DNA of 64,000 nucleotides from Dysgonomonas sp. BGC7 (GTDB lineage Bacteria > Bacteroidota > Bacteroidia > Bacteroidales > Dysgonomonadaceae). The notes beneath the pieces were generated by a model. The model made no database searches. It was given only the letters and a program-made list of their open reading frames with translations, and was not told the DNA's origin. The stretch is from the NCBI RefSeq assembly GCF_001261735.1, contig NZ_CVRP01000019.1, positions 124,001 through 188,000 of the forward strand, written 5' to 3'. Numbering within the stretch: the first letter of the stretch is position 1; every line of letters starts with the position of its first letter. Of this stretch, positions 28,554-52,027 are shown one piece after another. Both the position numbers and the translations under genes were made by a program.

Positions 28554-28664
28554 CTCTTATTTATTTATGATAGTTTTCTGTAATTTACAATAGTTGCTAT
28601 ATATCAATATTTTATCTTTTTATAATTCCCTGTTTTGTTTGCATTATTCAATAGTTTTTGTAGA

Positions 28665-28686
28665 TTTGCACGACATATGCACGACA
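28665..28686 (+). repeat. Tandem GCACGACA integrase arm-type site, left end
   Basis: TTTGCACGACATATGCACGACA: two GCACGACA units 11 bp apart. It differs by one base from 43174-43195 near the other end of the element. It lies 10 bp before the integrase start, so integrase binding could also repress its own gene. Confidence 0.7.
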
Positions 28687-28695
28687 CTTTTAAAT

Positions 28696-29961
28696 ATGAA
28701 AAGTATGGCAAATTATGTTCCTTATATACTAGCGAAACGTATTTCTCAAGATGGGACTACTCCTTTGTATGTATGCTATAACTATTCTCGTTCTCGAAGG
28801 ACTCTTATCGCAACAGGTTACGACATAAAGCCTGACCATTGGGACAATAAGAAAAAATGGATAAAGCGAGCTTGTCCACAATATGAAGAGATTGATCTTG
28901 TACTTACCAAAATAACATCCAAACTTGGCGAAATACTGAGTTATGCAGTAGATAATGCAATTGACCCGACTGTGGATTATATTCTACTCGAATTGGAGAA
29001 GAATAGAGAGTATGAGCAACGTTCGAATAGAGTGGATATGTTCAAAACATTGGAACTGTATATTGAAGAGAAAGCTCCTCATGTATCTAAAGACCAAGTA
29101 AAAGACTATAAGACATTACGAAAGCACCTCACTAATTTCAAAGAATATTCTTCTCAGCCTGTTACGTTTAGAAATTTGAATCTAAAATTCTACAATGAAT
29201 TTATGGATTATCTTTTCTACAAAGCCGTTAAGCCAGATGGGACAGTTGGTTTAGTTACCAACTCAGCCGGAAAAGTTATACGATTGCTAAAAGGATTTGT
29301 CAACTATCAAATCACAAAGGGAGTGATTCCCAATATTGACTTAAAATCATTCAAGGTTGTAGAAGAAGAAACTGATGCAATTTATCTCAACGAGAAAGAA
29401 TTAGAGGCTATTTATAGGCTTGATTTATCTGAGGATAAGGAGTTGGAAGAAATCAGAGATATTTTCATTGTGGGCTGTTATACAGGACTTCGTTACAGTG
29501 ATTTATCTACTCTAAATTCGGAACATATTGACCATATTAATGGAAATATCAACATAAAACAACGGAAAGTACACAAAGCAGTCGTTATCCCCATGATTGA
29601 CTATGTACCTGATATTCTGAGAAAATATCATTATAATCTACCGAAAGTACATAGTTATAAGTTCAACGAACGAGTCAAAGAATTAGGACAGGAAATAAAG
29701 CTTACCCACAAAGTGGAAGTTGTGAGAAAAAAAGGGAACAATAGGATTGCAGAAGTAAATAAGAAATGGGAAATGATTTCGTCACATACCTGTAGACGCT
29801 CTTTTTGTACAAATATGTATCTATCAGGGTTCCCTGCCGAGGAACTAATGAAGATATCTGGGCACAAAAGTCCTGCTGCATTTATGCGGTACATTAAAGT
29901 CGATAATTTTCAAGCTGCTGATAGATTGAAAGCATTGAGAAATAACTTAAAAAAACGATAA
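28696..29961 (+). CDS. Tyrosine recombinase (integrase of the element)
   Basis: 421 residues from the ATG at 28696. An open frame extends upstream through the arm-type repeats, but that part is not protein-like. The sequence has an arm-binding N-terminus (YVPYILAKRISQDGTTPLYV), a SAM-like domain, and a complete catalytic set: Arg in CYTGLRYSDL, HTCRRSF, SGHKSPAAF and the Tyr in MRYIKV. Unlike the other recombinases in the window it has the standard box I arginine, so it belongs to a different subgroup. It sits next to attL, as expected for an integrase that uses these ends. Confidence 0.93.
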   Translation: MKSMANYVPYILAKRISQDGTTPLYVCYNYSRSRRTLIATGYDIKPDHWDNKKKWIKRACPQYEEIDLVLTKITSKLGEILSYAVDNAIDPTVDYILLELEKNREYEQRSNRVDMFKTLELYIEEKAPHVSKDQVKDYKTLRKHLTNFKEYSSQPVTFRNLNLKFYNEFMDYLFYKAVKPDGTVGLVTNSAGKVIRLLKGFVNYQITKGVIPNIDLKSFKVVEEETDAIYLNEKELEAIYRLDLSEDKELEEIRDIFIVGCYTGLRYSDLSTLNSEHIDHINGNINIKQRKVHKAVVIPMIDYVPDILRKYHYNLPKVHSYKFNERVKELGQEIKLTHKVEVVRKKGNNRIAEVNKKWEMISSHTCRRSFCTNMYLSGFPAEELMKISGHKSPAAFMRYIKVDNFQAADRLKALRNNLKKR

Positions 29962-29965
29962 GAAG

Positions 29966-29987
29966 GTGAATAGATTCACTATTTTTG
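29966..29987 (+). promoter_or_regulatory. Operator-like inverted repeat and -7 box before the YhcG-type gene
   Basis: GTGAATAGATTCAC (29966-29979) is a 6-bp perfect inverted repeat, directly followed by TATTTTTG (29980-29987), an exact TAnnTTTG box. Transcription would start at about 29994, which supports the ATG at 30006 for the next gene. Confidence 0.5.
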
Positions 29988-30005
29988 CATAAATACATTT
30001 TCGTC

Positions 30006-31136
30006 ATGGCAATAGAACAACAGAACTTCAACCAACTAATTGATAATGTTTATCAAACCCATTGTCAACTCCAACTGAATGCAAAAAAAGTAGTAAATAT
30101 CAATTTAACTATCCGAAATTGGCTCGTTGGTTGTTACATTGTTGAGTTTGAACAAAACGGAGAAGATCGGGCAAAGTATGGTACGAATTTGATTGGAGAA
30201 CTGGCTTCAAAATTGAGAGCAAAAGGCTTGAAGGGTTTTTCTGTTAGCGCATTAAAGAATCATAGAACCTTCTATTTATTGTATCCTCAAATAGGCCAAT
30301 CAGTGATTAGCTTTTTGAAAGATGGGAAAAGCCAGTCAACGACTGGCGAATTACAAAAACGTTTACCTCTCTCAATTCGGAGGTCAGCAACCCCCGAATT
30401 GCAAGAAGAGTATCCTATTTTATCTGAAACCCTTTTGTCTCAATTAAGTTTCACCCATTTTATAGAATTGATAAAATTTGATGACCCACTCGAACGCCTA
30501 TTCTACGAAGTAGAAACAATAAAGAATAACTGGAGTGTTCGAGAACTTGAACGTGCTATCAATACGGCTTTATATGTCCGAACTGGTTTGTCTAAGAATA
30601 AAGAAGCTATCATCAGAAAATTCAAGAATCAGAAACCAGCTCAAAGCATAGATGTTATCCGTGACCCTTACTTTTTGGAGTTTCTCGGGTTGGAAGAACG
30701 GTCAGAATATAGTGAATCGGAATTAGAACAAGCTATTTTAGATCATTTGCAGAAATTTTTGATAGAACTTGGCACTGGCTTTTGCTTTGAAGCTCGCCAA
30801 AAACGGATTACATTTGACAATACACATTATCGCATTGACCTGGTTTTCTACCATCGTATTTTGAAGAGCCATATTCTGATTGATTTGAAAATCGGAAAAT
30901 TCGATCATGCCGATGCTGGACAGATGAATGTCTATCTTAATTATTACAAAGACATTGAAATGTCGGATGGAGATAATCCGCCTATCGGAATTATTCTTTG
31001 TGGCAGCAAAGGTGAAGCTTTGGCAAAATATGCTACGTCTGGCATAGATAACCAACTATTTGTTTCTAAATATTTAGTTCAGTTACCAGACAAGAAAGTC
31101 TTGGAAAATTTTATCAAAGAAGAGTTGAATAAATAA
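30006..31136 (+). CDS. YhcG/DUF1016-family PD-(D/E)XK nuclease
   Basis: 376 residues from the ATG at 30006; an upstream in-frame ATG at 29985 would precede the predicted transcript start. The N-terminal DUF1016 domain is clear (NINLTIRNWLVGCYIVEFEQ, GLKGFSVSALKNHRTFYLLY), as is the C-terminal nuclease fold: RIDLVFYHR, then ILIDLKIGKF (the D and DLK of the PD-(D/E)XK site) and AGQMNVYLNYY (conserved Gln). A region in between (SFTHFIELIKFDDPLERLFY) is typical of the family. Such proteins occur in mobile elements and near restriction systems; role uncertain, with defence or element stability possible. It follows the integrase by 44 bp with its own promoter. Confidence 0.9.
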   Translation: MAIEQQNFNQLIDNVYQTHCQLQLNAKKVVNINLTIRNWLVGCYIVEFEQNGEDRAKYGTNLIGELASKLRAKGLKGFSVSALKNHRTFYLLYPQIGQSVISFLKDGKSQSTTGELQKRLPLSIRRSATPELQEEYPILSETLLSQLSFTHFIELIKFDDPLERLFYEVETIKNNWSVRELERAINTALYVRTGLSKNKEAIIRKFKNQKPAQSIDVIRDPYFLEFLGLEERSEYSESELEQAILDHLQKFLIELGTGFCFEARQKRITFDNTHYRIDLVFYHRILKSHILIDLKIGKFDHADAGQMNVYLNYYKDIEMSDGDNPPIGIILCGSKGEALAKYATSGIDNQLFVSKYLVQLPDKKVLENFIKEELNK

Positions 31137-35829: not shown

Positions 35830-37248
35830 TCATCTTTTTACACCTCTATTTTTCTCTTCTTTTGACTTAATATTTACTCCAATACTTTGCTGAAACTCCC
35901 TGTACTTTCTCCTACACCAATTTGTATCATCTACTCCGTCAATAGTCAGTTCATATTTGTCTGGCTTTTCGGGATGTTGCTTGATCTCCGCAACAGATCT
36001 TTCTGTTTTGAAATACCGTTTGTATTCGGGAGAATATACGTCCCCTTTGAATACAATAGGCTTTATTTCTAATATATTTTTGATAAGACTTTCTGTAAAC
36101 TTCATAGTCTGTAACAACCTTTCAATCCATAGCAACTCTTTGATCTTGGGAAACAAGTCATGGATTTTCTTTAGTTCCTGTTTTAGTTTATCATATGTCG
36201 TCTCATGTTCCTTTTGCTTGGTCTGCATATCCTGTTTCAGAGTCTTCACTTCTTGAACTAGATTTTTCTTTTCTTCTTTAAGATTCTCTATTTCCTGTTG
36301 TTGCCGTTTCACTTTGGAAGAACCTATCATAGCGCTAATCCCATCCATAATAGTAGAACCTACATCGGCCGCCGTATTTTTGAGTTTTTCGGTTTTCAAT
36401 TCGCCCTTAGTTTTACTAAGAACTTGTTCCGTTTGTTGCAATTCAGCTTCTTTTTGTTGTTTCTGCTTCTCGGCTTGTTCGTAATCTTGCTTTGCTTCTT
36501 GTTCCTTCCGGTTGAATTGCTCAATGCTCTTGCGTTTAGATTCTTCCTGCATCAGTAACAGACCTATATTAATTTGTAGATTATTGGATTCTTCCTTTTG
36601 ATTACGAAAGTGTTCCGATGTTGAAATATGTCGAGCTTCCGATCCTTTGATGCCACGATCCAATCCATAGTTAGCCATAGCCTCCGCATAGCTATCCTGA
36701 TATTTTGTTAGCTTATCTCTTGTCATTACATCGTCTGCACATAAGCGAGGCCTATTTGTGTTTTTCTTCTTGTACTGATTTTTAGGGGTTTCCGGTTCTT
36801 TGTTTGACTTCTTTTTTCTGCGTTCTCCTTGAACAATTGGAACTACCGAAGCATGTATATGTGGGGCATCTTCATCCAGATGTAATGTTGCTGCCACAAT
36901 GTTTTTCTCTCCATATTCTTTTTTGAGCCAATCCATACTATCCTTACACCAATAGTCGAGCTTTCCTTCTGCCTGTATTCTTAACATATCTTCGGTACTG
37001 CCGGAGAGTATAAGCCGAATAACCTGTACCTGATTCTTTCCGACCTTACGGCTTAATCCTGCATTTTCGATCCTATACTTTATCGCTTCCGTCCTGTTGG
37101 TTACCCCTTCGGGGAATGGAACTAACTCTTTATTCAGATGTGTCCGTTTCGGGTCTACATTCGGAGCTATTACTTTCCGTTCTATATGGTCTGTCATCGC
37201 CGCTTCGTTTCGCGGTGATTTATCTAAATGGAGAACAACATATCCCAT
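35830..37248 (-). CDS. MobV/Pre-type mobilization relaxase
   Basis: 472 residues. The N-terminal 210 residues are a Pre/Mob relaxase: a start MGYVVLHLDKSP, an ERKVIAPNVDPKRTHLN segment, and the metal site HLDEDAPHIH at residues 123-132 (HxDExxPHxH). The C-terminal half is a long charged coiled coil (about 220-360), as is usual. The protein nicks DNA at oriT and pilots the strand during conjugal transfer with a helper. A palindrome-rich oriT candidate lies directly upstream. I see no start better than the ATG at 37248. Confidence 0.92.
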   Translation of the reverse strand: MGYVVLHLDKSPRNEAAMTDHIERKVIAPNVDPKRTHLNKELVPFPEGVTNRTEAIKYRIENAGLSRKVGKNQVQVIRLILSGSTEDMLRIQAEGKLDYWCKDSMDWLKKEYGEKNIVAATLHLDEDAPHIHASVVPIVQGERRKKKSNKEPETPKNQYKKKNTNRPRLCADDVMTRDKLTKYQDSYAEAMANYGLDRGIKGSEARHISTSEHFRNQKEESNNLQINIGLLLMQEESKRKSIEQFNRKEQEAKQDYEQAEKQKQQKEAELQQTEQVLSKTKGELKTEKLKNTAADVGSTIMDGISAMIGSSKVKRQQQEIENLKEEKKNLVQEVKTLKQDMQTKQKEHETTYDKLKQELKKIHDLFPKIKELLWIERLLQTMKFTESLIKNILEIKPIVFKGDVYSPEYKRYFKTERSVAEIKQHPEKPDKYELTIDGVDDTNWCRRKYREFQQSIGVNIKSKEEKNRGVKR

Positions 37249-37506: not shown

Positions 37507-38472
37507 TTAGGGTCTGAAACCTTTGAACGGTTTCCGTTTGACTTCCGTTTTAGGCTTCTCTTTTTGCTGTATCCGTCTGATCGAAATAAGATACTCATTC
37601 AGGTCTTTATAGCCTGCATATTTTGCCGACTGATCGATTACTGCCGGATGAGTTTGTTTAATGGTTAGAGTAGCTTTCTTTCCCGGATTATCATTATCGA
37701 GATAAGTATGGACTTCTTTGTATTCTTTTAGCTTGTCGATAGCTTTGGGAAGGTTGGATAGTGAATTAAGCACTATTACATCCTCTTGAGGTACAAGTAT
37801 ATTCTTTAGTGACAGGTAGGAAAGGAAATCGGTAAAACCTTCAAAGACCGAGCACGATTCTTTTTTACTGTTGGTATTATTTGCTCCGCCATATGTTGTT
37901 ACCTCCATAGAGGTACAGCCCTTAAATGGCTCGCTCCGTAATATCCAACCTTTACTGTCATTTGGAAACCCGATAGCAAAAAAAGGTTTTCCGTTTACGG
38001 AATAATGAATTTCAGAGCAATATTGCTTAGCGATATCAAGACTTATCTTTCTTTCCGATAGATAATCAATCAGGGCTTGATGTGTTATTGGCTGTACCTT
38101 TTGTATTGTTATAGCAGGAATATTTTTATTTGAATTATTGCCGTGAAAAGAAAAAGACTGTGATTGCTGTTGTGCTGTCGTATTGTTGTACAGATTTACT
38201 GACGTACTGTTGTATCGATTCAGCTCTTGCATTGCCTCGTTCAATGAACAATTATTGATTCGCATAACCAAATCTATTATTGTTCCCCCGTCATTGCTCC
38301 CGAAATCGATCCATAAGTTTTTATTATAATCGACTTTCAGACTTGCATTAATATCATCCCTGAATGGGGAATGGTACATGCCATAATAACCATGATCTTT
38401 AACCGGGTAAATACCTTTGCTTGCTAGATAGGCTTTGATACTTATTTTATTTGCTTCATTATATGTTGTCAT
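37507..38472 (-). CDS. Primase-like protein (CHC2-type zinc-finger remnant plus Toprim)
   Basis: 321 residues. Residues about 1-75 have the CHC2 primase zinc-finger fold (KDHGYYGMYHSPFRDDINAS, NKNLWIDFGSNDGGTIIDLV), but the usual cysteines are replaced. The later part is Toprim-like (VIVLNSLSNL, VHTYLDNDNPGKKATL with the acidic pair). Similar proteins accompany mobilization genes in Bacteroidota elements and help replicate or re-synthesise the transferred strand. The N-terminus starts at MTTYNEANKI. The iteron region lies upstream. Confidence 0.85.
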   Translation of the reverse strand: MTTYNEANKISIKAYLASKGIYPVKDHGYYGMYHSPFRDDINASLKVDYNKNLWIDFGSNDGGTIIDLVMRINNCSLNEAMQELNRYNSTSVNLYNNTTAQQQSQSFSFHGNNSNKNIPAITIQKVQPITHQALIDYLSERKISLDIAKQYCSEIHYSVNGKPFFAIGFPNDSKGWILRSEPFKGCTSMEVTTYGGANNTNSKKESCSVFEGFTDFLSYLSLKNILVPQEDVIVLNSLSNLPKAIDKLKEYKEVHTYLDNDNPGKKATLTIKQTHPAVIDQSAKYAGYKDLNEYLISIRRIQQKEKPKTEVKRKPFKGFRP

Positions 38473-38718
38473 AATCTTGTTTTTAATTTTGTAGAACTTT
38501 TTCTTACTACATACTACAAATGATTTAAGTGTCTTATTTTTAAGTTATAATATGTAGTGTCTATATTGAATTGTAGTAACTATGTACCTTACAACTGTAG
38601 TAAGGTAATAACAGGAGAGTAAGATGATATTTTTGCACCTACTACAGCTAATCTTTTTTCTTTCATGGGATTATCTGTTATGTAGTAGGGTCGTAAGCAA
38701 AAAAATGAATCATCTTTA
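38473..38718. other. Iteron-like region between the primase-like and VapE-like genes
   Basis: Seven copies of TGTAGTA(A/G/T) or a one-base variant in 185 bp: minus strand at 38504-38511, 38511-38518 and 38639-38646; plus strand at 38553-38560 (TGTAGTGT), 38572-38579, 38596-38603 and 38681-38688. The sequence around them is AT-rich. This layout resembles a plasmid-type replication origin or a multi-site operator. Confidence 0.6.
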
Positions 38719-39927
38719 TTACAGTTCTTGATCGACAAAGGGATTTGGCTTAATCTTCTTTATCCGGTAACCATATACAGGAGAGGGATTACGGTTTATT
38801 CGTTTCTGAGTTCGTATAAATCCAGCTTTGCGGATGGCTTCGCCCATCCGCTTCTCGGACAGGGGCAAAGAGCTGAACATCCTAAGATAGTTCAGTACCT
38901 GAGCCGTTGTCATAAACGAATCGTCCGTATCATCCGGCTTTTCAAAACCCTGCATCAGCATTTCATATTCTACTGTCTGCACATGAAAGCCCGAACTTAA
39001 CCGATGTAATTCTTCTATTTCCACATCTTCAAACCAATAGCGGACACCTTGTTTGTATAAATAGATGATTTCAGAGAAAACATGATCCATATTGATGGAT
39101 AAAGCCTTGTCGATATCAATACGGATAACCTCGAAAGGAAGAAAACGTCTGCTGCCTGTCGGATCAGTCAGAAAGTCGTTGCCGTTGACCGATGCCATAA
39201 AGCTCGCCAGATGTGAATATTCTTCAATATAGGTATCGTATGGTCTGCGGTACTTGACAGCTGGAGTCGTGATCAGGTTTTTGAGTTCGTTCTCATCCCG
39301 TTTGTTTAAAGCGCGTAATTGGTCATCAATATTGATAAACAGGTATTCGGCTATCAGGGTTAATACATCTTTTCCTTGCGGATCTATCTTCCCTGTAAAC
39401 AGGTAGCTTTTTAACGGATCGGGACAAAGGTGGTCGAGCCATGTTGTTTTGAACTTGCCCTGTTCGCCAGTCAGCACTAAACAGGTATGATTCTGACAAC
39501 CGACATCATTCATTGCATTAGCAACAACACCTATCAGCCACTTTACCAGATACTCGTTCCATTTATCAGGATTGGAGACTTCGACGGTTTGCAAGAGTTG
39601 CTCCGTATAACCAAAGTCCAACGGATTCAGCAAAGGCAATCGAGAAAGATATTCCCGGATGGGATGTACTTTTTCCGCAAAATTGCTTTCGAGGATAGCC
39701 CGGATATTATCGGCTGAAGTGGTAATACCAATGCGGACATCAATCTCCCTGCGGAGGGAATTCAGGAAGTATTTGGTTACAGGCTTGGATTCCCCTTGTG
39801 CATGGATATCCCGGTACTCCGTCCGGCTCTTTACGGTATTGAACCGAAAGTTGTACAGCGTTCGGAGTTGTTGTTCTATCCGTTCATTTTTCGACTGGCG
39901 GACAGAGGCTGATGCTTTTTCTTTCAT
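38719..39927 (-). CDS. VapE/DUF3987-like replicative ATPase
   Basis: 402 residues. A Walker A motif GEQGKFKTTW near residues 153-162, Walker B-like EYLFINIDDQL, and a sensor region VNGNDFLTDPTGSRRFLPFEV that marks the virulence-associated E superfamily of phage/plasmid primase-helicases. The C-terminus ends with a domain (MTTAQVLNYLRMFSSLPLSE) followed by basic residues. It probably unwinds or helps replicate the element. It starts 4 bp after the HTH gene stop, so the two are coupled. Confidence 0.88.
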   Translation of the reverse strand: MKEKASASVRQSKNERIEQQLRTLYNFRFNTVKSRTEYRDIHAQGESKPVTKYFLNSLRREIDVRIGITTSADNIRAILESNFAEKVHPIREYLSRLPLLNPLDFGYTEQLLQTVEVSNPDKWNEYLVKWLIGVVANAMNDVGCQNHTCLVLTGEQGKFKTTWLDHLCPDPLKSYLFTGKIDPQGKDVLTLIAEYLFINIDDQLRALNKRDENELKNLITTPAVKYRRPYDTYIEEYSHLASFMASVNGNDFLTDPTGSRRFLPFEVIRIDIDKALSINMDHVFSEIIYLYKQGVRYWFEDVEIEELHRLSSGFHVQTVEYEMLMQGFEKPDDTDDSFMTTAQVLNYLRMFSSLPLSEKRMGEAIRKAGFIRTQKRINRNPSPVYGYRIKKIKPNPFVDQEL

Positions 39928-39931
39928 GGCA

Positions 39932-40216
39932 TCAAGAATCTCCTGTGGTATCGAATTGGTTTAGGATAAAGTTTAAGATTTCCTCCTTGTTGTTAAAGAC
40001 AAGTTTTTGGCCGAACCGATATTCTTTATAATAACCAAGTCGGGCATATTTACGGACTGTGGGAGCAGAGGCTTTGAGAAGTTTAACTGCCTCTTTCATC
40101 TTGATTAGGTTACTTATCGCCTTGTCAACCGGCGATGCTTGTTCTTGAGGAATACTATTTTCAACAGCTTCCTCATTTTCTGATTTTAACCAGAATTTCT
40201 TGAATGTCTTTCTCAT
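39932..40216 (-). CDS. Small HTH DNA-binding protein
   Basis: 94 residues from the ATG at 40216. An upstream in-frame TTG at 40249 overlaps a TAnnTTTG box (40254-40247) and is unlikely. The C-terminal half has a MerR/excisionase-like helix-turn-helix: KEAVKLLKASAPTVRKYARL GYYKEYRFGQKLVF (in two parts). It may regulate the VapE-like and primase-like genes or act at the origin. It is directly coupled to the VapE-like gene. Confidence 0.78.
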   Translation of the reverse strand: MRKTFKKFWLKSENEEAVENSIPQEQASPVDKAISNLIKMKEAVKLLKASAPTVRKYARLGYYKEYRFGQKLVFNNKEEILNFILNQFDTTGDS

Positions 40217-40246
40217 TTTACTAATAGTTTTAAAAAATTCGAAAGA

Positions 40247-40254
40247 CAAATATA
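40247..40254 (-). promoter_or_regulatory. Promoter -7 box of the HTH/VapE-like operon
   Basis: The minus strand reads TATATTTG, an exact TAnnTTTG match, 30 bp upstream of the ATG at 40216. Confidence 0.55.
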
Positions 40255-40386
40255 TATAACAATTTATCTGATAATAAGCAACATATCCTCACGGGACAGG
40301 TTGGGACAACAACTCACTAAACAGGACAAATCCGTGTGTCATACTAAGAATAAATAAGGGTAAATGCAAGAAATAAGGAGAGAGTA

Positions 40387-41103
40387 TCAGGCGCCTTTAT
40401 GCGATAAGATCTTCATATCCTTTTCGATAATGGAAACTGCTTTTATTAGTCCGATTCCGGAATAAAATTCTCGAATCGTATCCAAATGCTTTAGAAGTGT
40501 TTTAGTATCTACGTTACTACGGTTTAAGGACGGGTTGGCGTGTAGTTTTGTATCGGACGGAGCAATTTTTTCGCCTATAAGCATTTGCCATGCTTGTAAT
40601 CGCTCTTCAGGTGTATAGGCGGAAATAAGTTCCGAAGCCAATAAATAGCCGAAGATACGGTCGCCTAATTGCTTCCGGCCTTTTATAGAATAACATTTGA
40701 AAATTTTATCCTTTACTACCTGTATCATATCTTCTTTTGTCAAGCTACCAGCTTGTGTAAAAGGTGATATGCCATACAATATAGATTTTATGGCTTCATC
40801 CGAAATATCATCCTGTATGAATAGCGTCTCTACTTCTTCACGTTTAGTTCTTATTATTTCAGCTATATGTTTTTGTTCTCTACCTGTTCCAAAAAGCAAA
40901 TTAAAGAACGGTATTACGCTGGAAACCTTTAGCATAAGGTTACTCTCTTCAGATATTTTCGCACAATCATCTAAAAAGACATTTACATCAGGAGCTTTAC
41001 CTTTTGCTTGTTGTATCTTAAAGCTGGCATAATAGAATTTAAGGATGGAAACACCTGATGTTCCCAAGAAGTTATCGTTGTATATTTTTCGATACTTTTC
41101 CAT
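40387..41103 (-). CDS. Hypothetical protein of the mobilizable element
   Basis: 238 residues, largely helical, no signal peptide or membrane segment. Segments such as FYYASFKIQQAKGKAPDVNV and LLFGTGREQKHIAEIIRTKR show no motif I know. It has its own -7 box at 41130-41123 (TAATTTTG on the minus strand, 20 bp before the start) and is divergent from the TIR gene. It could be an element regulator or maintenance protein. Confidence 0.75.
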   Translation of the reverse strand: MEKYRKIYNDNFLGTSGVSILKFYYASFKIQQAKGKAPDVNVFLDDCAKISEESNLMLKVSSVIPFFNLLFGTGREQKHIAEIIRTKREEVETLFIQDDISDEAIKSILYGISPFTQAGSLTKEDMIQVVKDKIFKCYSIKGRKQLGDRIFGYLLASELISAYTPEERLQAWQMLIGEKIAPSDTKLHANPSLNRSNVDTKTLLKHLDTIREFYSGIGLIKAVSIIEKDMKILSHKGA

Positions 41104-41219
41104 ACTTCACTAAATTTCTCTACAAAATTACGAAGATTTTTTATTTTTACGATACTTGTTGATTTTCAGTATGATTAGGATTAACTATCTTTACTATTTA
41201 TAACAAAATTATCATTCTC

Positions 41220-42077
41220 ATGAGCATACAAAGCATAAACAGTTCTATTTCTAGCGTTGACAGGGAAATACATAGTCTTGAAAATCAAATTCAAACAATA
41301 AATAATAATATTACTCGTAAAGAGAGAGAAGCTAACAGTATCTTAGATAAGATGAATAGAGAAAAAGACTTGAAACGTATAATAACACATCAGAAAGATC
41401 TAACAAAAAAAAATGAGGATATAAATAAACTAACCAAAGATAAAGCAGGAAAGGTAAAAACATTATCAGACAAACAAATTAAACGGACTAAATTGACCCA
41501 AGAGCTTAGTAAGGAAGAGCAAAAAGAGCGAGATAAAACAAAGAAAGAACAAAAAGAGATGCTCTCTTTACAACAAAGTATTACTCGTGAAATGGAAAGA
41601 CAAAGAACAATTTCAGCAGATAGCTTCCAAACAACACATTTTCAGACAGAATCCATATTGCCAGATAAAAAATATGATGTGTTTGTTTCTCACGCATCTG
41701 AAGATAAAGAAAATTTTGTTCGACCTTTTGTTGAGGCATTGCAAGCTCAAAATATTGCTGTTTGGTATGATGAGTTTGAACTTCGATTGGGAGATAGTCT
41801 AAGGCGTTCTATCGATAATGGCCTGAGAAATTCCACTTATGGAATAGTCGTGCTTTCTGAATCATTCTTTAATAAAGAATGGCCTCAAAGAGAATTGGAT
41901 GGACTTTTTGCCAGAGAGGTAAATGGGGCTAAAGTTATATTACCGTTGTGGCATAAAATATCGAAAAATGAGGTAATGAATTATAGCCCTTTAATAGCAG
42001 ATATGCTGGCTATTAATACGACAGATTATACTATTGAAGAAATTGCTGATAAAATTGCTCAAAGAATTAAAATCTAA
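41220..42077 (+). CDS. TIR-domain protein with N-terminal coiled coil
   Basis: 285 residues. Residues about 10-130 are a charged coiled coil. The TIR domain starts at YDVFVSHASEDKENFVRPF (about 152) and continues with VWYDEFELRLGDSLRRSID, YGIVVLSESFFNKEWPQREL and KVILPLWHKI. The Glu at about 225 in WPQREL is in the position of the catalytic Glu of NAD-cleaving TIR domains. Bacterial TIR proteins are frequent effectors in anti-phage defence. It is followed after 6 bp by a nucleoside-deoxyribosyltransferase-like gene, so the two are co-expressed. The coiled coil may bring about oligomerisation on sensing phage. Confidence 0.9.
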   Translation: MSIQSINSSISSVDREIHSLENQIQTINNNITRKEREANSILDKMNREKDLKRIITHQKDLTKKNEDINKLTKDKAGKVKTLSDKQIKRTKLTQELSKEEQKERDKTKKEQKEMLSLQQSITREMERQRTISADSFQTTHFQTESILPDKKYDVFVSHASEDKENFVRPFVEALQAQNIAVWYDEFELRLGDSLRRSIDNGLRNSTYGIVVLSESFFNKEWPQRELDGLFAREVNGAKVILPLWHKISKNEVMNYSPLIADMLAINTTDYTIEEIADKIAQRIKI

Positions 42078-42083
42078 AAAGAT

Positions 42084-43097
42084 ATGATAAAAAAAGAGGA
42101 TAAGAAAATTTGTTTTGTGATATCTCCCATTGGGGAGGAAGGATCTGAAACCAGAACACGCTCAGATCAAATACTAAAACATATCATTACACAACCGGTA
42201 TTACAATTAGGGTATGAAGTAATCAGAGCGGATAAAATCTCCGAACCGGGAATCATCACAACTCAAATTATAGAGTATATAGTAGATGCCGAACTTGTGA
42301 TTGCTGATTTGACAGACCATAATCCAAACGTGTTTTATGAACTGGCAATTAGACATGCAATGAGAAAACCTCTCGTTCAAATGATAAGAAAAGGTGATGT
42401 TATTCCTTTTGATGTCGCTGCAACAAGGGTAATACAGTTTGACCTTCACAACTTAGATAGTGTAGCAGCTGCGAAAGAGGAAATATCGTCGCAAGTGAAA
42501 TCGATTGAAATCGGAGGTAGTGAAGTTCAAAACCCTATATCTGTATCCTTAGACTTAAAGGTTTTAAAAGAAAGTGGAGACGCAGAAGAACGGTCTTTGG
42601 CTGATATTGTTGAAGCAATTTCCGATTTGCGACTGACTGTTGCTGGTATAGATAAAGGATTACAATCCTCTAAATCAATGGAAGAATTGAAAGCGAAAAT
42701 AGAAACATTACCGTCTCTAATTGAAAATAGATTATATGACCCTGAAAGAAGAAGACGAAGGAAATTTCATCCAATGATGTTGGATGAAATAATGCATATG
42801 GAATTGAAAGAAAAAAATCCAACCTTGAGTTTCTTGATGATGATTAGTTTATTTAAGGATGATTTTCCTTGGATATATGAAGTCGGACTTGAAACTTATA
42901 ATATTCTTAAATCGTCAAAATCTAAAGAAGAAAAAGAAAAGTCCCTTGAAACTTTTGAGCAATCGTTAGACATACTTGGACAACCAATATATCGGGAAAT
43001 GTTCGGTAAATCAGAAGAGTTATATATGTTTAGTAAAGATATGAGGCATTTTACTCGCCGATATTTAGAACGATATTATCAAGAAGAACTGAAATAA
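42084..43097 (+). CDS. Nucleoside 2-deoxyribosyltransferase-like protein, partner of TIR
   Basis: 337 residues. The N-terminal 140 residues form a Rossmann-like domain: KICFVISPIGEEGSETRTRS, LGYEVIRADKISEPGIITTQ, AELVIADLTDHNPNVFYELA and IRHAMRKPLVQMI. The (D)LTDxNPNVFYELA box is the hallmark of the nucleoside 2-deoxyribosyltransferase-like superfamily, related to TIR folds and occurring as an effector in defence systems. The remaining 190 residues are helical and unfamiliar (AEERSLADIVEAISDLRLTV). It follows the TIR gene by 6 bp and ends 76 bp before the inner repeat of attR. A nucleotide-handling role is likely. Confidence 0.83.
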   Translation: MIKKEDKKICFVISPIGEEGSETRTRSDQILKHIITQPVLQLGYEVIRADKISEPGIITTQIIEYIVDAELVIADLTDHNPNVFYELAIRHAMRKPLVQMIRKGDVIPFDVAATRVIQFDLHNLDSVAAAKEEISSQVKSIEIGGSEVQNPISVSLDLKVLKESGDAEERSLADIVEAISDLRLTVAGIDKGLQSSKSMEELKAKIETLPSLIENRLYDPERRRRRKFHPMMLDEIMHMELKEKNPTLSFLMMISLFKDDFPWIYEVGLETYNILKSSKSKEEKEKSLETFEQSLDILGQPIYREMFGKSEELYMFSKDMRHFTRRYLERYYQEELK

Positions 43098-43203: not shown

Positions 43204-43239
43204 AAAAGCCTTGATAATCAACAGACTATCAAGGCTTTT
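43204..43239 (+). terminator. Hairpin terminator at the right end of the element
   Basis: AAAAGCCTTGATA pairs perfectly with TATCAAGGCTTTT (13 bp, 10-nt loop). It abuts the attR core, so it serves the TIR operon, or originally terminated the target tRNA, whose 3' end is copied next to it. Confidence 0.75.
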
Positions 43240-43255
43240 GGCGGTATGGACGGGA
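43237..43255. repeat. Right attachment site (attR core)
   Basis: TTTGGCGGTATGGACGGGA, identical to 28535-28553. The bases to the right do not continue a tRNA body, so the target tRNA is not directly at this junction; a second insertion probably separates them. Confidence 0.85.
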
Positions 43256-45852: not shown

Positions 45853-47175
45853 ATGGAGAGTTTTAATTTATATAGAGAGGCGAAGAATCAATATGAGAAA
45901 TTAATTCCAGGAAAAAATGATGGATTAATTCTCCTATCTCTCTATGCCAAATATAAGGACAGAGACTTTTCCGAAGAAAATATTAATACGATTATCAACA
46001 AAGTTTTCAAAGATCAAGGAGTTGAAAATTCAAGAACAGAATATAATAGAAATAATACAATAATATTAAGACTACAAGAATCATTTTTATGGCGTAATGA
46101 AACAAAAAGGACCTATCAATTTAAAAAATATGGATTAGAACTTTGCCAGCATATTGAAAAGCGACTTATAAAAAAATATAGCCCAGCCAAGATAAAGCGT
46201 TTTTTTGACGAATTACATAAAAGCTTGACTGAAAATATTGAAAAGGAAAATGATTTTAATGAGTGGGTAGAAGACCATTTCGATCTGAGAATACCAGAAC
46301 TTATTTCTCAAATTGAAATACTTGATCAACAAGTCAACGAATCAGTAAATGATTTCAAAATCAGTATTAAGTCTGAAAATAAAAATGTTATTTATGTTTT
46401 GAAAGGAATTGAAATTCATTTAGAAATAATTAAAAAACAGGCTTCTGAGCTCAAGAATGCATTTCAGGTTTCATATGAAATTGACGAAATCCTAACAGGA
46501 ATTCTCCAAAAGCCAGACAACCACGACTATATTAGAAATATTCAAAAGGTTCAAAAATTTCATGACAATTCGCGAAATCAGTTAGAACAGATAAGTAAAA
46601 GAATTGAAAAAATAAAACCTCGTCTCCGAGAGTTTATTTATGATTTTAACAAACAGGATTTTGATCGAAAAACAAATAAATTCATTGATTATTTGTTAGA
46701 AAACTCTTTTGTAAAAAAAGAAGGAAGTAGAAAAAAAATTAAATTTCCAAATAATCTTTTAACCCTAAGGGTGAAATTAACAGAACACCTTCCTATATTT
46801 AATATAGTTCCGACCAGAGAGATAAGCTATAAATTACCTATGGAAATTTCGAAAAGGCAAATAGATTTCTCTAAAAGGAAAGAGTTACTAGATAAAACCA
46901 ATAAATGGAAACAAGATAAAGAAAAAATATTGTATTGGACAAATATTGCCTTTAAAGAATTAGACGAAAATGGTACATTAGCTTTTACTCCATTATTTTT
47001 TAAGATTATAGATACCAATGAATTATCTATAGCAGTTAAAACTGCTCATAACATTTTAAGGAGAAGTACCAAATTTAAACATAAATATAAAATTGAAATT
47101 AATCGAGAAGCTGTTAATCATACAGTGAATAAAAGTATTTCATTATGGCAGATGACTATTCAGAAAATGGAGTAA
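45853..47175 (+). CDS. jetA: Wadjet subunit JetA (kleisin-like)
   Basis: 440 residues. The N-terminus suggests winged-helix domains (GKNDGLILLSLYAKYKDRDF, LRLQESFLWRNETKRTYQF), the middle is a long coiled coil (about 120-290), and the C-terminus has a beta-rich small domain, as in MukF/MksF-type kleisins. Identification rests mostly on position: it is followed by a small MukE-like gene, a large SMC-like ATPase and a Toprim protein, the order of Wadjet jetABCD. It links the two SMC heads. The next start overlaps its stop by 31 bp, so they are translationally coupled. Divergent from well-known members, so subtype is not assigned. Confidence 0.85.
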   Translation: MESFNLYREAKNQYEKLIPGKNDGLILLSLYAKYKDRDFSEENINTIINKVFKDQGVENSRTEYNRNNTIILRLQESFLWRNETKRTYQFKKYGLELCQHIEKRLIKKYSPAKIKRFFDELHKSLTENIEKENDFNEWVEDHFDLRIPELISQIEILDQQVNESVNDFKISIKSENKNVIYVLKGIEIHLEIIKKQASELKNAFQVSYEIDEILTGILQKPDNHDYIRNIQKVQKFHDNSRNQLEQISKRIEKIKPRLREFIYDFNKQDFDRKTNKFIDYLLENSFVKKEGSRKKIKFPNNLLTLRVKLTEHLPIFNIVPTREISYKLPMEISKRQIDFSKRKELLDKTNKWKQDKEKILYWTNIAFKELDENGTLAFTPLFFKIIDTNELSIAVKTAHNILRRSTKFKHKYKIEINREAVNHTVNKSISLWQMTIQKME

Positions 47176-47825
47176 AATATAGTTTTCTATATGAAAAGAA
47201 AGTAATGAGTGTTTTTGCTAAGCTGGACTATGCGCTTAGAAGTGGTACTCATATCCAGAGAGAATATCCTTTTGACGTGAATTTATATCGTTTCTTGAAT
47301 GATAATGACAATTTTGAATCATTAAAAAAGTATTATAAAGACTTTTTTAATCTCAACCTTAAAATTGAAGGAAATGAGTTTAATCAATACTACTATCTGG
47401 AACTGAACGAAGATGGTAAAAGCAATGTGTCTTCTGATTACAGAGATTATTTAAAAAGTGAGTTTATAATTATCGGAATGCTCTTTCTTAAGATGTACAA
47501 ACTAGATGGTAATATTGAGTTAGATAGTATTTCTGACTTTATAAACCTCCTTTATGAAGAATATGAAGAAGAGAAAAACGCCTTGAGAAAATTAATAAAT
47601 GACAACTCTTCAGACAAGGGAACAGATACTACTGATCAAAGATTTGAAGACATTGTAAAAAAAGCCTTTATCAAATTTGGCGAATTAGGATGGTTAATGT
47701 GGGAGGATGAAAGTGAGAAAAACAAATTTAAGATTTTACCATCTTTCGAACGACTAAGAATAGCATATCAGCCCCAGATAGAAACAATAGACGACTTAAT
47801 TAAAGATGTGAAAAATGCAGAATAA
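47145..47825 (+). CDS. jetB: Wadjet subunit JetB (MukE-like)
   Basis: 226 residues with winged-helix character, e.g. SVFAKLDYALRSGTHIQREY and FEDIVKKAFIKFGELGWLMW. Size and position between the kleisin and the SMC gene fit the MukE/MksE-type subunit that contacts both. It overlaps jetA by 31 bp and jetC by 11 bp. An internal Met at 47205 is a possible alternative start. Confidence 0.83.
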   Translation: MADDYSENGVKYSFLYEKKVMSVFAKLDYALRSGTHIQREYPFDVNLYRFLNDNDNFESLKKYYKDFFNLNLKIEGNEFNQYYYLELNEDGKSNVSSDYRDYLKSEFIIIGMLFLKMYKLDGNIELDSISDFINLLYEEYEEEKNALRKLINDNSSDKGTDTTDQRFEDIVKKAFIKFGELGWLMWEDESEKNKFKILPSFERLRIAYQPQIETIDDLIKDVKNAE

Positions 47826-50800
47826 TTTTCCACGTATATATAGTTTATCTACGATAGGTATTAAGCAGCACTTTAATGCAGACTATTTATTTCACCCATA
47901 CAGAACAGATTTTAGTGGTGAAAGTGGTAGCGGAAAAAGTATGATCGCAGATATGATTCAATTGATTTTAGTAGGATCTAGCGAATTTCAATCTGCTACA
48001 GACGGCAATAAAGATAGAGATGTCAAAGGGATGCTTTTGGGGAGCAAAGGCAAAACTTCTTCCAGAGGTTACATTTTTATGAATATCGAAGTCAAGCCAA
48101 AGCAATATATTGCAATGGGCGCCTACCTTGAAAGTTCCAGTAATGTGGCTGAGATGTTTATTATCCAAAATGGATATGATTGGGAAATGTTAACGACTCT
48201 CAATCGTCCAATTTTTACAAAAGATTTAATTATAGATGATAAGGTTGAGGCGCTAAATAATCTTTGTGATAAGATTGCGTTTGTAAGGATTAAATCATTT
48301 AGGAGGAAAAATTATCATCAAATTCTTTATGATAATGAAATACTCTCTTTAGACTTGACTAAAGAAACAACATTAAAAGCTTACGCAAGTATTTTAAGGT
48401 CGTTCTCTAGAGGAAAAGGTTTTAAAAAAGAATCCGAGAATCTTAAAAGATTTCTTTTCGGAGATGACGATAAAAATATCATTAAGGCTAAATATGATGA
48501 AGAGGTGAAAAATATTACAAATGACTTTCACGAACATAAAAGATATTTGGATGAAATCAGATTAATTAATGAAAAACAAACTTTATTAAAAAATGTGCTG
48601 GAGAAAAGTAAAGTCTATAAATCGACTTATTCTGAATATTTAATTAAACGATACAATTTTTGGAATACACAAAAGAAGAAATCATCCCAAGAGCAACAAG
48701 AACTTAATGATGAATTGGAAAAACAGATTGAAGAATTAAAATTCATAAAAAATCAAATAATAAAGATACAAATTAAAGAATTGAAAGAACTTCAAAATTT
48801 AAAAGAAACAGTGGTTAGACTTGAAAACAAAGAAGAGTCTAATACTGATATTGAAAATAAATTTTTGAAGATAAGCCAGTCCAAAGCTTCTATCGAAACG
48901 GTTGAATATTGGTTGAGATTAAATAACAATCAATTAGAAAGAGTTAAAGAATGGTTTTCTTTTCAAAAGAAAGAACATAAAAGTAAAAAAAACTTGCAAA
49001 GTTTTACTGATTATCTTAAGGAAAATAATGCATTAAGTGATTTTGAAGCATCCAACTGGTTAATTGATTTTGAGAAAGAAAATATCGAATTTCCAAGGAG
49101 AATCGAAAGAATAGAAAAGGAAATAGCGGAACTTCAATCATTCTCTAAGTTTACAGATATTAACAATCCAGAATCTCTTTTAAATTGGGCTATAGAAAGC
49201 TTAAAATTCCCAGTCTCACCCAATATTGAGAGCGCTCTAATCTACTTTCAAAAATATGGTAAAATAAGACCTTCTGAAAGAAATGCTGAAAGATATGTAC
49301 CTTCCCCAGGAGACTTGTTTGAAAACATGAACTCTAAAATTAAAGAAGAAACAGATCATGGCTTCTGGTTAAACCTTGATGGTGTTTATGAATATATTGA
49401 ACATTCGTCTAGCCATGTTTTAAATGTTAGCGATCCAAAACAACTTTTAGGACCTATTCAAAAAGTAAAAGAAGGTATTACAAATCGTTTGTCAACACTT
49501 AAGATTGAAAAGAAACAGGAACAAAAATTAAAAGAGATATTATTTGCCTATGGCAACTTAAAGGAATCTATTAGTTTATATAAACGGAAGAATGATCTTT
49601 CTAATTTCAATATTGAAGAAACTTTAAAAGAGATTTCTGAAGAAACTTTAATCCAAAATATTGAGTTGTATAATAACAAAAAGAGTATTGATTTAGAATT
49701 CACTTCTATTCAGAAAGAATATCAAGATTTTTTAACTCAAAAGAACACAATTGATGAGTATAACAAAAAAATCAAAGAGCTGGAAAGTAAATTCTTTAAA
49801 GAAGATTTAGTAATTGGCATAAACTCTATTGAAAACGAAATTGAGCAATTTATAAATAATATGTATAAATTGAAAAATGGCTTTGATAAAGAATTATTAA
49901 AGGAAAAGTATGTTAAAGACATTAGCCATGAATCGAAATTATTAAGTACAAAATTTGATCTTAAACAAACAATAGACGATCTTGAAAAAAATAAAAAAGA
50001 AAAAGAAGATAATCATACTAAAGCAAACCTAGAGTTGGATGAAACAATTAGGTTGAATGAGTATCTATTTAAATCAGAAATTAAGTTTTCTGAAGATATT
50101 ATAGAATTAACCAATCCTGAAAACGGAGAGTTAAACTCTTTGAAATTCAAAGCGGAACAATCAAAAGTTGCCTACGATGAATACTTAAAAATCGTTACTG
50201 AAAATACACCTTATAATGAATTAATTTCTATTGGTAAGCTTGCTAATTATTTACTCCCCACAGTTTTTCCCACTTCCACAATTGATGAAAATCTAATTAC
50301 TTATAATATAGTAGAAAGGTTGAATAAACTCACACAGGATATTCAGGAGATTGGTTCAAGAAAAATGGAGATATTGGGAAGTATTTTCAATGAGGTATAT
50401 AGGGTTTACAATAATTATCTTACTAAAATTAGTGAAATTGATTCCTATCTCAAAAAGAAAAACAAAGTTATTACTGGAGGTAATCGAGCCTCCTTATTGT
50501 CTAAACCTTCAATACATTTCCCAACTAGTTGGCTTTTTAATTTTAGAAAGCAACTGAATAATCAACTGAATAATGTTGGATTATTTAGCGAACTTCGGGA
50601 AGAAATAGATATTAACGTGATGATGGTAAAGGCTTTTCATCAATTTGGAGGTAGTGCTAAAATCGATCCCGAAGATTTAATGAATCCTAAATCTTATTTC
50701 GATCTAGAGTTTGATTTAAAACTTGACAATGATGAGAGTAATTCTGGGAGTAATGGTCAAACTTATACTGCTAATGCGTTATTATGCTTAGCAAGGTTGT

Positions 50801-51096
50801 CTCTAATTGAGGTAGAAGGAAGAAGAGGGCTAAAGATAATGCCAATAGATGAAGCCGAAGGTTTAGGGAGTAATTATGATATGCTTCATAAATTAGCCAA
50901 AACAGAAAAACACCAAATCATCACGATGGCTATAGAGACAGCAGGAGAAATTACGAATGATGGACAATATATCTACATTATGAATGAAAATAACTTAGCT
51001 GATACAGATACCTATGTTCCACCTTTGGGGATTTTTTCTGATATCATTGTAGAAGATATTACCAATTATATTAACACAATACCGAGCAATGAATAA
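47815..51096 (+). CDS. jetC: Wadjet subunit JetC (SMC/MukB-like ATPase)
   Basis: 1093 residues. Walker A is GESGSGKS at residues 35-42, in the N-terminal SMC head. Two long coiled-coil arms (about 230-450 and 600-760) enclose a short hinge-like part. The C-terminal head has an ABC signature-like SGSNGQTYTANALLCLARL near 975 and Walker B IMPIDEAEGLG near 1010. Such SMC motors extrude DNA loops; in Wadjet they recognise small circular plasmids so the Toprim partner can cut them. It overlaps jetB by 11 bp and jetD by 8 bp. Confidence 0.93.
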   Translation: MQNNFPRIYSLSTIGIKQHFNADYLFHPYRTDFSGESGSGKSMIADMIQLILVGSSEFQSATDGNKDRDVKGMLLGSKGKTSSRGYIFMNIEVKPKQYIAMGAYLESSSNVAEMFIIQNGYDWEMLTTLNRPIFTKDLIIDDKVEALNNLCDKIAFVRIKSFRRKNYHQILYDNEILSLDLTKETTLKAYASILRSFSRGKGFKKESENLKRFLFGDDDKNIIKAKYDEEVKNITNDFHEHKRYLDEIRLINEKQTLLKNVLEKSKVYKSTYSEYLIKRYNFWNTQKKKSSQEQQELNDELEKQIEELKFIKNQIIKIQIKELKELQNLKETVVRLENKEESNTDIENKFLKISQSKASIETVEYWLRLNNNQLERVKEWFSFQKKEHKSKKNLQSFTDYLKENNALSDFEASNWLIDFEKENIEFPRRIERIEKEIAELQSFSKFTDINNPESLLNWAIESLKFPVSPNIESALIYFQKYGKIRPSERNAERYVPSPGDLFENMNSKIKEETDHGFWLNLDGVYEYIEHSSSHVLNVSDPKQLLGPIQKVKEGITNRLSTLKIEKKQEQKLKEILFAYGNLKESISLYKRKNDLSNFNIEETLKEISEETLIQNIELYNNKKSIDLEFTSIQKEYQDFLTQKNTIDEYNKKIKELESKFFKEDLVIGINSIENEIEQFINNMYKLKNGFDKELLKEKYVKDISHESKLLSTKFDLKQTIDDLEKNKKEKEDNHTKANLELDETIRLNEYLFKSEIKFSEDIIELTNPENGELNSLKFKAEQSKVAYDEYLKIVTENTPYNELISIGKLANYLLPTVFPTSTIDENLITYNIVERLNKLTQDIQEIGSRKMEILGSIFNEVYRVYNNYLTKISEIDSYLKKKNKVITGGNRASLLSKPSIHFPTSWLFNFRKQLNNQLNNVGLFSELREEIDINVMMVKAFHQFGGSAKIDPEDLMNPKSYFDLEFDLKLDNDESNSGSNGQTYTANALLCLARLSLIEVEGRRGLKIMPIDEAEGLGSNYDMLHKLAKTEKHQIITMAIETAGEITNDGQYIYIMNENNLADTDTYVPPLGIFSDIIVEDITNYINTIPSNE

Positions 51097-52027
51097 AAAT
51101 ATTACATGGAAAGAATTAAAAGCCCTTGATGACTTATTTCATTTAAAGAAAACAAGAGCGAATATTCAAGAGCATCCTTATATTAAATATTTATTGGAAG
51201 ACAAATGTATTCTTGATAGAAAGATCGGAAATACTAAAATTGTTGTTTCTACTGATTGTTTTGGCAAATTCTATGAGGGTACATTTAAAATACAGTATGA
51301 TGAAGCTAAGAACTTTCTAATCGAAAATGGGATTGAACCTAATGCTAAAAAGAATTTCACACTTGAAGACGTAAAAACTTTAATGCTCATCGCAGAAAAT
51401 AAAACTGAGTTGAAAAATAATCCTACTAATATAGAAGACTTCTCCAATGAATTTTTTAATACCTCAAAATACTTAAAGAATAAGACAAGCATAAGAAATG
51501 CTGTATTTAAAATTTTAGGGATCACAGAATTTTCTTTAGATAAAAAGGAAAATCAATGGAGAATTGTCGTTGATCATCCTAATCCTAGAGCTATTGTATT
51601 GTGCGAAAATAAATCCTTTTTAAAACAACCCTGGATAGCTAGAAATGCAGAAATTAAGTTATGGTATGTTGGTGGGAATAACATAAAAATAATTGATGAT
51701 ATTGATGAAATAGAGCTTTCAAAACCTATCTATTATTCTTGTGATTGGGATTTAGCAGGATTACAAATTTACACAAGAATAAAAGAAAAGCTTAGAAAAA
51801 GAAATAAAGATATATCCATTCTCTACCCTAATGAGCCTCATAAGAAAATAAGCACATATATCGACTACCACTATAGTCATTGGGATTTATCAAAAAAAGT
51901 ATCTGGATTATCTATTGATTTATTCTTAGAAAAAGAATTAATTCTTATTAATAATCTGATTCAAAGTCAAATGTGGATTGAGGAAGAATCATTTGATTTG
52001 ATAGAAATGCTAAATTGCACAAAATAA
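51089..52027 (+). CDS. jetD: Wadjet nuclease subunit JetD (Toprim)
   Basis: 312 residues. The last 150 residues form a Toprim domain: AIVLCENKSFL with the conserved Glu at about 173, YYSCDWDLAGLQIYTRIKEK with the DxD pair at about 219/221, and DYHYSHWDLSKKVSG. The N-terminal part is a DNA-binding-like extension, as in JetD. This subunit cleaves the plasmid DNA entrapped by the SMC complex. It starts 8 bp inside the jetC end. The operon ends here. Confidence 0.92.
   Translation: MNKNITWKELKALDDLFHLKKTRANIQEHPYIKYLLEDKCILDRKIGNTKIVVSTDCFGKFYEGTFKIQYDEAKNFLIENGIEPNAKKNFTLEDVKTLMLIAENKTELKNNPTNIEDFSNEFFNTSKYLKNKTSIRNAVFKILGITEFSLDKKENQWRIVVDHPNPRAIVLCENKSFLKQPWIARNAEIKLWYVGGNNIKIIDDIDEIELSKPIYYSCDWDLAGLQIYTRIKEKLRKRNKDISILYPNEPHKKISTYIDYHYSHWDLSKKVSGLSIDLFLEKELILINNLIQSQMWIEEESFDLIEMLNCTK

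Follow-up and report, generated by a model that had tools for sequence, protein, structure and literature searches.

A coiled-coil TIR gene and a nucleoside deoxyribosyltransferase-like gene in a mobilizable element of Dysgonomonas sp. BGC7: a candidate anti-phage operon with an exchangeable first gene

Introduction

TIR, DrHyd and SLOG domains belong to one fold class of enzymes, effectors, signal makers and sensors that act on nicotinamide adenine dinucleotide (NAD) and other nucleotides (PMC9503650). The activity of TIR NADases depends on self-association, and additional regions often keep the proteins apart (PMC11204291). AbTIR, a TIR NADase with catalytic residue Glu208, makes 2'cADPR (PMC10022894), and the PADLOC family PDC-S66 appears in PMC12482510. 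In the TM-macro type of Thoeris from Escherichia coli, ThsB1 is paired with ThsB2, whose active site resembles that of nucleoside deoxyribosyltransferases (NDTs) (PMC11204291), and in Swarozyc a TIR-like NADase is triggered when an auxiliary part binds the phage portal (PMC13174449). In this report, two adjacent genes of Dysgonomonas sp. BGC7, one encoding a coiled-coil TIR protein and the other a protein with an NDT-like head and a helical tail, are compared with these systems. They lie at the right end of an integrative mobilizable element of 14,722 base pairs (bp), within a window of 64,000 nucleotides (the whole stretch of DNA analysed, contig NZ_CVRP01000019.1, positions 124,001 to 188,000, from a genome of 4.3 Mb), to which all coordinates refer.

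The initial annotation regarded the two genes as a candidate two-gene defence system. The adjacent TIR/NDT-like pair is confirmed, and the earlier interpretation of it is partly supported: a defence role is plausible from the domains present, but the pair is not a conserved system. The exchange of the first gene and the tail shared with other proteins are more informative than the pair itself. The features concerned are the following:

41220-42077, + strand: TIR gene, 285 amino acids (aa), with a coiled coil at about residues 1-148, an AbTIR-like TIR domain at residues 149-285 and candidate catalytic Glu225
42084-43097, + strand: second gene, complete, 337 aa, kept behind an Mrr-type gene in four related loci
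41141-42083, no strand: exchanged segment (TIR cassette), without blastn similarity to Parabacteroides sp. PH5-46 (locus L026), where Mrr is present; both flanks are similar
42084-42443, + strand: DrHyd/NDT-like head of the second protein, residues about 1-120, with candidate catalytic Glu86
42660-43097, + strand: C-terminal helical tail module of the second protein, residues about 193-337, common to TIR-headed proteins

The two open reading frames (ORFs) are on the same strand and, as annotated earlier, 6 bp apart; their placement at the end of the mobilizable element also holds, as they are the final two genes to the left of the right end repeat. The second gene closes the operon, the next + strand ORF of at least 60 aa beginning only at 44153, and the two genes are probably co-transcribed.

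Exchange of the first gene

The clearest result is that segment 41141-42083 has been exchanged as a clean cassette. Four loci (L026-L029) in elements of this kind retain the second gene but have an Mrr-type endonuclease in place of the TIR, and the intact copies of the second gene are 93% (L026), 81% (L028) and 80% (L029) identical to that of the window. In blastn comparisons, the window and L026 are similar from 38285 to 41140 (73%), after which the similarity breaks off and returns from 42084, the second start codon, to 43253 (88%). Against L027 it ends at 41095 and resumes at 42084, and against L028 and L029 it ends at 40135 and 40120, resuming in both at 42090, 6 bp past the second start codon. 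Cassette exchange is concluded because DNA similarity flanks the slot and resumes at or 6 bp after this start codon. The first gene of L011, which is the same place as L027, matches Mrr_cat (2.7e-28) and Mrr_N (2.9e-17), and the Mrr protein of L026 matches PADLOC PDC-S02 and mREase_IV (87-90 bits). Mrr-type (type IV) restriction fills the first slot in all four loci. No Mrr match is found in the window by tblastn below E 0.16, and the likely target of Mrr would be DNA, not NAD. Behind abortive infection (Abi) N-terminal domains, Mrr, TIR and NDT domains are described as alternatives to one another (PMC3710099), which fits the exchange of the first gene.

Judged by their identities to L026, the Mrr and NDT-tail proteins have diverged together: the values are 97% and 94% in L027, 83% and 82% in L029, and, in L028, 75 and 90% for the two frames of Mrr and 82% for the NDT-tail protein. 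Some of the copies look damaged. The second gene of L027 has an internal stop. The Mrr gene of L028 is split over two frames, with an error possible in this metagenome assembly, and that of L029 has no internal stop but lacks ATG, GTG or TTG at the expected start. All four Mrr cases come from a single type of element and do not count as independent events. Mrr homologues lacking the second gene are found in two species, at the same position on the chromosome (L237 and L239); a third locus, L238, cannot be read here, its contig breaking off at the point expected for the second gene.

The coiled-coil TIR protein

Profile searches of both domains had been proposed in the initial annotation; they gave TIR_2 for the first gene (Pfam, 1.1e-20) and, via a profile of the head family, Rcl/DNPH1 for the second. 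The glutamate of WPQREL, pointed out earlier, is residue 225 and aligns with the glutamate of YELDGL in AbTIR. The nearest structures to the TIR domain are the AbTIR chains 7uwg and 8g83 (E 2e-52 and 6e-52); the TIR sequences printed for the two chains agree, and 8g83 bears the name AbTIR. We take the YELDGL glutamate to be the catalytic Glu208, the positions being matched by counting along the construct. NADase activity is predicted for the TIR protein, with Glu225 as the candidate catalytic residue.

The region in front of the TIR domain was earlier described as an unfamiliar coiled coil of 120 residues. The non-TIR part measures about 148 residues, and the coil is familiar. PADLOC PDC-S66 covers the whole protein (301.8 bits, residues 1-281 of 285, model positions 1-278 of 282), and phrog_15646 spans residues 1-281 (228.7 bits). 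Because the full length, coil included, matches both families, the coiled-coil TIR is by sequence a known, AbTIR-like architecture. The second-best PADLOC family, ThsB1 (PDLC00417, 147.6 bits), matches more weakly and only over the TIR domain. What distinguishes the window from AbTIR-type proteins and the PDC-S66 family is the neighbourhood: its TIR gene is paired with an NDT-tail gene, whereas the three nearest relatives found lie behind restriction-modification (R-M) genes and three plasmid relatives lie beside other genes.

Those three closest relatives found (L133, L134 and L135) are 67-68% identical overall and 58-59% in the coil. Of their TIR genes, one lies 9 bp behind a cytosine methylase gene, one follows an Eco57I-type R-M gene by 2 bp, and one, near the start of a contig, reaches 4 bp into a gene that ends in a TaqI_C domain. 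This arrangement could be a combination of R-M with a TIR back-up. The plasmid relatives are the three inspected among 126 plasmid records with a TIR match.

Co-occurrence of the two genes

Protein searches of 101 genomes of the family detect the second gene in 9 at a cut-off of E 1e-5 and the TIR in 8 at a cut-off of E 1e-10; the two occur together in one genome, the window's own. At the level of the class, the TIR is present in 14 of 395 genomes (E up to 1e-25), and among 120 genomes of the family of G633 it is found in G633 itself only (E up to 1e-50). The surroundings of TIR relatives were inspected in 15 regions, some of them truncated at a contig end, and none has an NDT ORF within three ORFs of the TIR. 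A conserved two-gene system is therefore rejected, and so is a fixed pair, which the initial annotation had said would fall if homologues of the two genes were almost never adjacent. The second gene itself has not been seen alone. No paper was found on the TIR/NDT-tail pair, the Mrr-NDT pair or the tail in a literature search that largely excluded subscription journals.

The NDT-like head of the second protein

The second protein has no meaningful Pfam match at E up to 1 (COG4_N at 0.17 and BamE at 0.24 only) and no NCBIfam match at E up to 0.1; its head reaches the cut-off of no curated Pfam NDT model, and no Pfam family of that kind is found at E up to 1. The proposed likeness to nucleoside deoxyribosyltransferases is nevertheless borne out by profile and by model. 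A head profile of 34 rows matches 12 distinct Rcl/DNPH1 sequences (E 2.3e-4 to 0.32), placing Glu86 on the glutamate of the DNPH1 YEL motif. Among 40 Bacteroidota heads, picked by profile without use of a motif, Glu86 is conserved in all 40, Asp110 in 39, Asn82 in 38 and Asp50 in 37; viral heads were picked with a pattern that contains YEL. An AlphaFold model from a 44-row alignment, which replaced a poor earlier prediction with mixed heads (pLDDT 57.6), has a mean pLDDT of 73.6 and a pTM of 0.47, with most blocks of the head at pLDDT 74-94 and the first at 62. In Foldseek its best matches are DNPH1 and NDT (E 2.8e-4 and 3.5e-4), and TIR structures are matched as well. According to this model, the head has a Rossmann-like DrHyd/NDT fold.

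In NDT and DNPH1, a tyrosine bonded to the catalytic glutamate is linked to deoxy-selectivity, and NADase TIRs usually have phenylalanine or alanine at this position (PMC11204291). Phe11, in strand 1 of the head, is invariant in all 34 rows of the profile. We suspect that it sits where the deoxy-selecting tyrosine would be, with the qualification that this strand is not aligned, the DNPH1 match starting later. The head may thus prefer NAD+ over deoxynucleotides. With DNPH1/Rcl and NDT of the DrHyd superfamily, the second protein has in common a predicted Rossmann-like head and a YEL glutamate at the same place; it differs by the invariant Phe11 and by an added linker and tail. PADLOC PDLC00733, labelled 'Effector' and 'TIR' (388 positions), matches the head weakly (34 bits). 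It was considered as a natural TIR-NDT fusion, which it did not establish: 11 of 198 Bacteroidota genomes matched, all 11 listed within model positions 229-382.

The tail module

The region following the head was earlier taken to be an unfamiliar helical tail of 190 residues. It consists of two parts, a poorly modelled linker (about residues 145-195) and a shared helical module (about 195-337), and neither Pfam nor NCBIfam gives a meaningful match to it. In G005, a genome of the same genus, a protein with a TIR-like head shares 43% identity at its C-terminus with residues 193-336. A pattern scan with the tail alignment of one genome per species (84,980 genomes) resulted in 25 loci, of which L027, L028, L029 and L037 are the same places as in G030, G021, G029 and G005. 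By profile, the head is TIR-like in 18 loci, NDT-like in five (L026-L029 and L031), unreadable in L032 and neither in L050, where the tail match is weak and regarded as chance. As the tail carries a TIR-like head in 18 and an NDT-like head in five of the 25 loci, the two heads replace each other on one module. The module is compact and a candidate sensor; no family was found for it in Pfam or NCBIfam.

All five TIR-headed tail proteins that were scanned match PADLOC TIR-TM (PDLC03016; 43.9-383.6 bits). The tail of this family is homologous to residues 193-337 (approximately) of the second protein, but its head is TIR, whereas the second protein has a DrHyd/NDT-like head and gives no match to the TIR-TM model at E 0.1. 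The name 'TIR-TM' was found in no paper within the literature search described above. Genes for TIR-tail proteins look single, a same-strand ORF lying at most 30 bp upstream in 1 of 18 (some start near contig ends). Genes for NDT-tail proteins with visible upstream sequence (the window and L026-L029) have a close co-directional ORF at 6-20 bp in all five cases, four of which belong to one group of related elements and are not independent. The fifth NDT-tail locus of the scan, L031, has its gene beginning 128 bp from the contig end.

TIR genes beside other NDT-headed genes

NDT-like heads are present in 78 and TIR_2 in 155 of 395 Bacteroidota genomes. A TIR ORF lies within 600 bp, and within two ORFs, of 5 of 49 NDT ORFs; the 49 comprise 40 regions, mainly from the top of the NDT-head list, and nine ORFs from other searches, and TIR neighbours were counted with an iterated profile, viral loci included. 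In three of the five cases (L017, 5609-7259; L083, from 4505; L084, from 983), an NDT-like head is fused to TPR-S (by Pfam in all three) and a ThsB-like TIR gene lies 0-1 bp downstream. As in the window, an NDT-headed gene is coupled to a TIR gene, but in these pairs a TPR-S sensor takes the place of the tail, the ThsB-like TIR is small and lacks a coil, and the gene order is reversed. The remaining cases are an NDT-TIR-patatin row in L098 and a TIR-headed gene of 1391 aa located 195 bp upstream in L099.

Of 8 Bacteroidota loci with an NDT-headed gene of about 650 aa, 7 have a patatin-like gene after it (L248, L249, L250, L251, L094, L098 and L101; not L252). The patatin assignment is based on the motif GGGIRG, with Pfam Patatin (8e-29) checked in L248 only, and NDT-patatin looks like a separate recurrent operon. 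In L016 (97-3622), an NDT-like head lies behind an unassigned N-terminal region, and 584 bp further a PycTM gene and an AGS_C/guanylate-cyclase-like gene form a Pycsar-like pair.

In IMG/VR, 209 loci matched the head, and 80 of these were kept (L152-L231; many near-identical, 39 distinct). No TIR ORF was found in these 80, also with the iterated profile. NDT-headed genes are common in viral contigs, mostly with a length of about 200-400 aa in the 80 loci, and are candidate cargo for defence against superinfection. Weaker relatives of the head occur in phage records of Streptococcus (21 of 40) and Staphylococcus (14 of 40).

Proposed function and alternatives

Sequence supports both proteins as putative enzymes that share a fold class; each has a candidate catalytic glutamate and an extension of its own. 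Our preferred explanation, held tentatively and at somewhat less than an even chance, is that they are two abortive-infection enzymes, probably self-sufficient, that are stacked in one anti-phage cargo operon with a swappable first slot. The NDT-tail gene would be the resident, and the first slot, here filled by a coiled-coil AbTIR-like NADase, would be exchangeable. In healthy cells, the tail, and in the TIR protein the coil, would hold the catalytic head inactive. Upon infection, tail or coil would bind a trigger linked to phage or damage and cluster the heads, which would then cut N-glycosidic bonds, the TIR on NAD+ and the NDT-like head on NAD+ or another nucleotide, so that growth stops before the phage matures. 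The defence role and enzyme activities are predictions from the protein families, and the triggers, clustering and substrates are likewise putative. Tail and coil are proposed as sensor and clustering parts by analogy, the closest published model of a head with a sensor that was found being Swarozyc (DUF4062), where a TIR/NDT-like NADase head is joined to an auxiliary part that binds a phage protein (PMC13174449). Swarozyc belongs to another domain family, and the likeness is one of description.

Self-sufficiency is favoured because relatives of Mrr and of the TIR are found in places that lack the second gene, and because TIR-tail proteins and prophage NDT-headed relatives are seen without a TIR or Mrr partner. 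The preferred explanation draws further on the candidate catalytic residues retained by both proteins, on the interchange of TIR-like and NDT-like heads on one tail, on the exchange at the second start codon, on the R-M genes next to the closest TIR relatives found, and on the published alternation of Mrr, TIR and NDT domains (PMC3710099). Several points weigh on the other side. A self-sufficient gene would not need the close upstream partner found in all five visible NDT-tail cases, and coupling is favoured because the second gene itself was not seen alone. The role of the tail is guessed from the architecture of a protein with a medium-confidence model and no meaningful family match, and the activity of both proteins and protection from phage are predictions made from the genes alone.

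The main rival is an obligate two-component system, which is possible but doubtful. The NDT-tail protein would be the sensor or switch and the TIR or Mrr of the first slot the effector, coupled through a complex or a nucleotide product, and the effector could be exchanged without changing the switch. The constant partner at 6-20 bp, the joint divergence of Mrr (83-97%) and NDT-tail (82-94%) in L029 and L027 relative to L026, and the return of similarity at or 6 bp after the second start codon all argue for it. So do the regular partners of other NDT-headed genes, namely patatin (7 of 8, for the genes of about 650 aa; one confirmed by Pfam) and the ThsB-like TIRs of L017, L083 and L084. On the other hand, Mrr is found without the NDT-tail gene at the chromosomal place of L237 and L239, the TIR relatives inspected do not adjoin an NDT gene, TIR-tail genes mostly have no close partner, the four Mrr pairs come from one element group, and there is no obvious activation signal common to an Mrr nuclease and a TIR. 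In its full form, a modular immune system in which a DrHyd-tail switch controls alternative killers (DNA-cutting Mrr or NAD-cleaving coiled-coil TIR), with the cassette exchanged at the start codon of the switch, is considered unlikely.

It is quite unlikely that the two genes are chance neighbours, that is, unrelated cargo of separate histories that came to lie together at the element's right end and has neither a joint function nor co-regulation. Cargo slots beside element ends turn over quickly, and the pair occurs in no other genome searched; however, the genes share a strand with a gap of 6 bp, and another defence-type gene fills the first slot at a similar distance in related elements.

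A Thoeris-like relay is very unlikely; in it, infection would lead the TIR to produce a signal, either cyclic ADP-ribose or an adenine dinucleotide, that the NDT-like head binds or processes to activate the tail. ThsB1 as second-best family of the TIR, the 2'cADPR made by its relative AbTIR (PMC10022894), and the ThsB1-ThsB2 pairing of TM-macro Thoeris (PMC11204291) are consistent with such a relay. As in that system, two TIR/NDT-class proteins, one of them ThsB1-like, are encoded together, but the second protein here is an NDT-like head with its own tail, and Pfam finds no SIR2, SLOG, macro or transmembrane domain of the ThsA type in it. A search of the genome for Macro finds nothing at E up to 0.01, and the sole SIR2_2 protein there adjoins a HerA gene. 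In addition, the head keeps its catalytic glutamate, unlike a plain receptor, and the same partner adjoins Mrr, for which no signal of this kind is known. Thoeris itself was rejected, as a ThsB-type TIR is present but no ThsA (SIR2-SLOG or TM-macro) lies beside it by Pfam. The SIR2_2 protein (402 aa; L253, 883-2091) overlaps the HerA gene (3-893, PF01935 2.8e-18), an arrangement that resembles SIR2-HerA defence.

A role other than anti-phage defence, in element stability (addiction or exclusion of rival elements) or nucleotide salvage, is highly improbable: although the genes lie on a mobilizable element beside its end and the fold relatives NDT and DNPH1 are enzymes of nucleotide metabolism, the operon has no third gene, the TIR and TIR-headed tail proteins are catalogued as defence candidates in PADLOC, and a tail in common with TIR heads would be unexpected for a salvage enzyme.

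The locus offers a natural experiment in the assembly of abortive-infection systems: the neighbour of the second gene is a nuclease in some elements and a putative NADase in another, and one tail module is joined to heads of the TIR or the NDT-like kind. Should the second gene function with both partners, the choice of effector would be a plug-in property; should each gene suffice by itself, mobile elements would stack independent defences in one operon.

The mobilizable element and neighbouring genes

The element is bounded by a 20-base sequence that recurs with one difference at both ends and was not found in shuffled sequence. Its main features are the following:

28534-28553, no strand: left end repeat (attL-like), 20 bases, assessed against shuffles
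28594-29961, + strand: tyrosine integrase of the element, PF00589 2e-16, just inside the left repeat
35830-37248, - strand: MobV-family relaxase, NF041497 207.5 bits (cut-off 100)
38719-39927, - strand: VapE-like ATPase gene of the element backbone, PF05272 2.3e-34
43236-43255, no strand: right end repeat (attR-like), 138 bp past the second gene

In L028, the sequence corresponding to the right end repeat sits at the end of a tRNA-Asp gene. A DnaG primase match in the element is below the NCBIfam cut-off. Directly after the integrase, a gene for a YhcG-type PDDEXK nuclease is present (29985-31136, PF06250 4e-56). Just outside the element, a condensin-like row of four genes (45853-52027) includes MksE (PF21980 1.7e-18), an SMC-like protein that matches PADLOC JetC1 (3.8e-11), and a weak JetD_C match (0.0041), and this row is a Wadjet/MksBEFG-like defence candidate.

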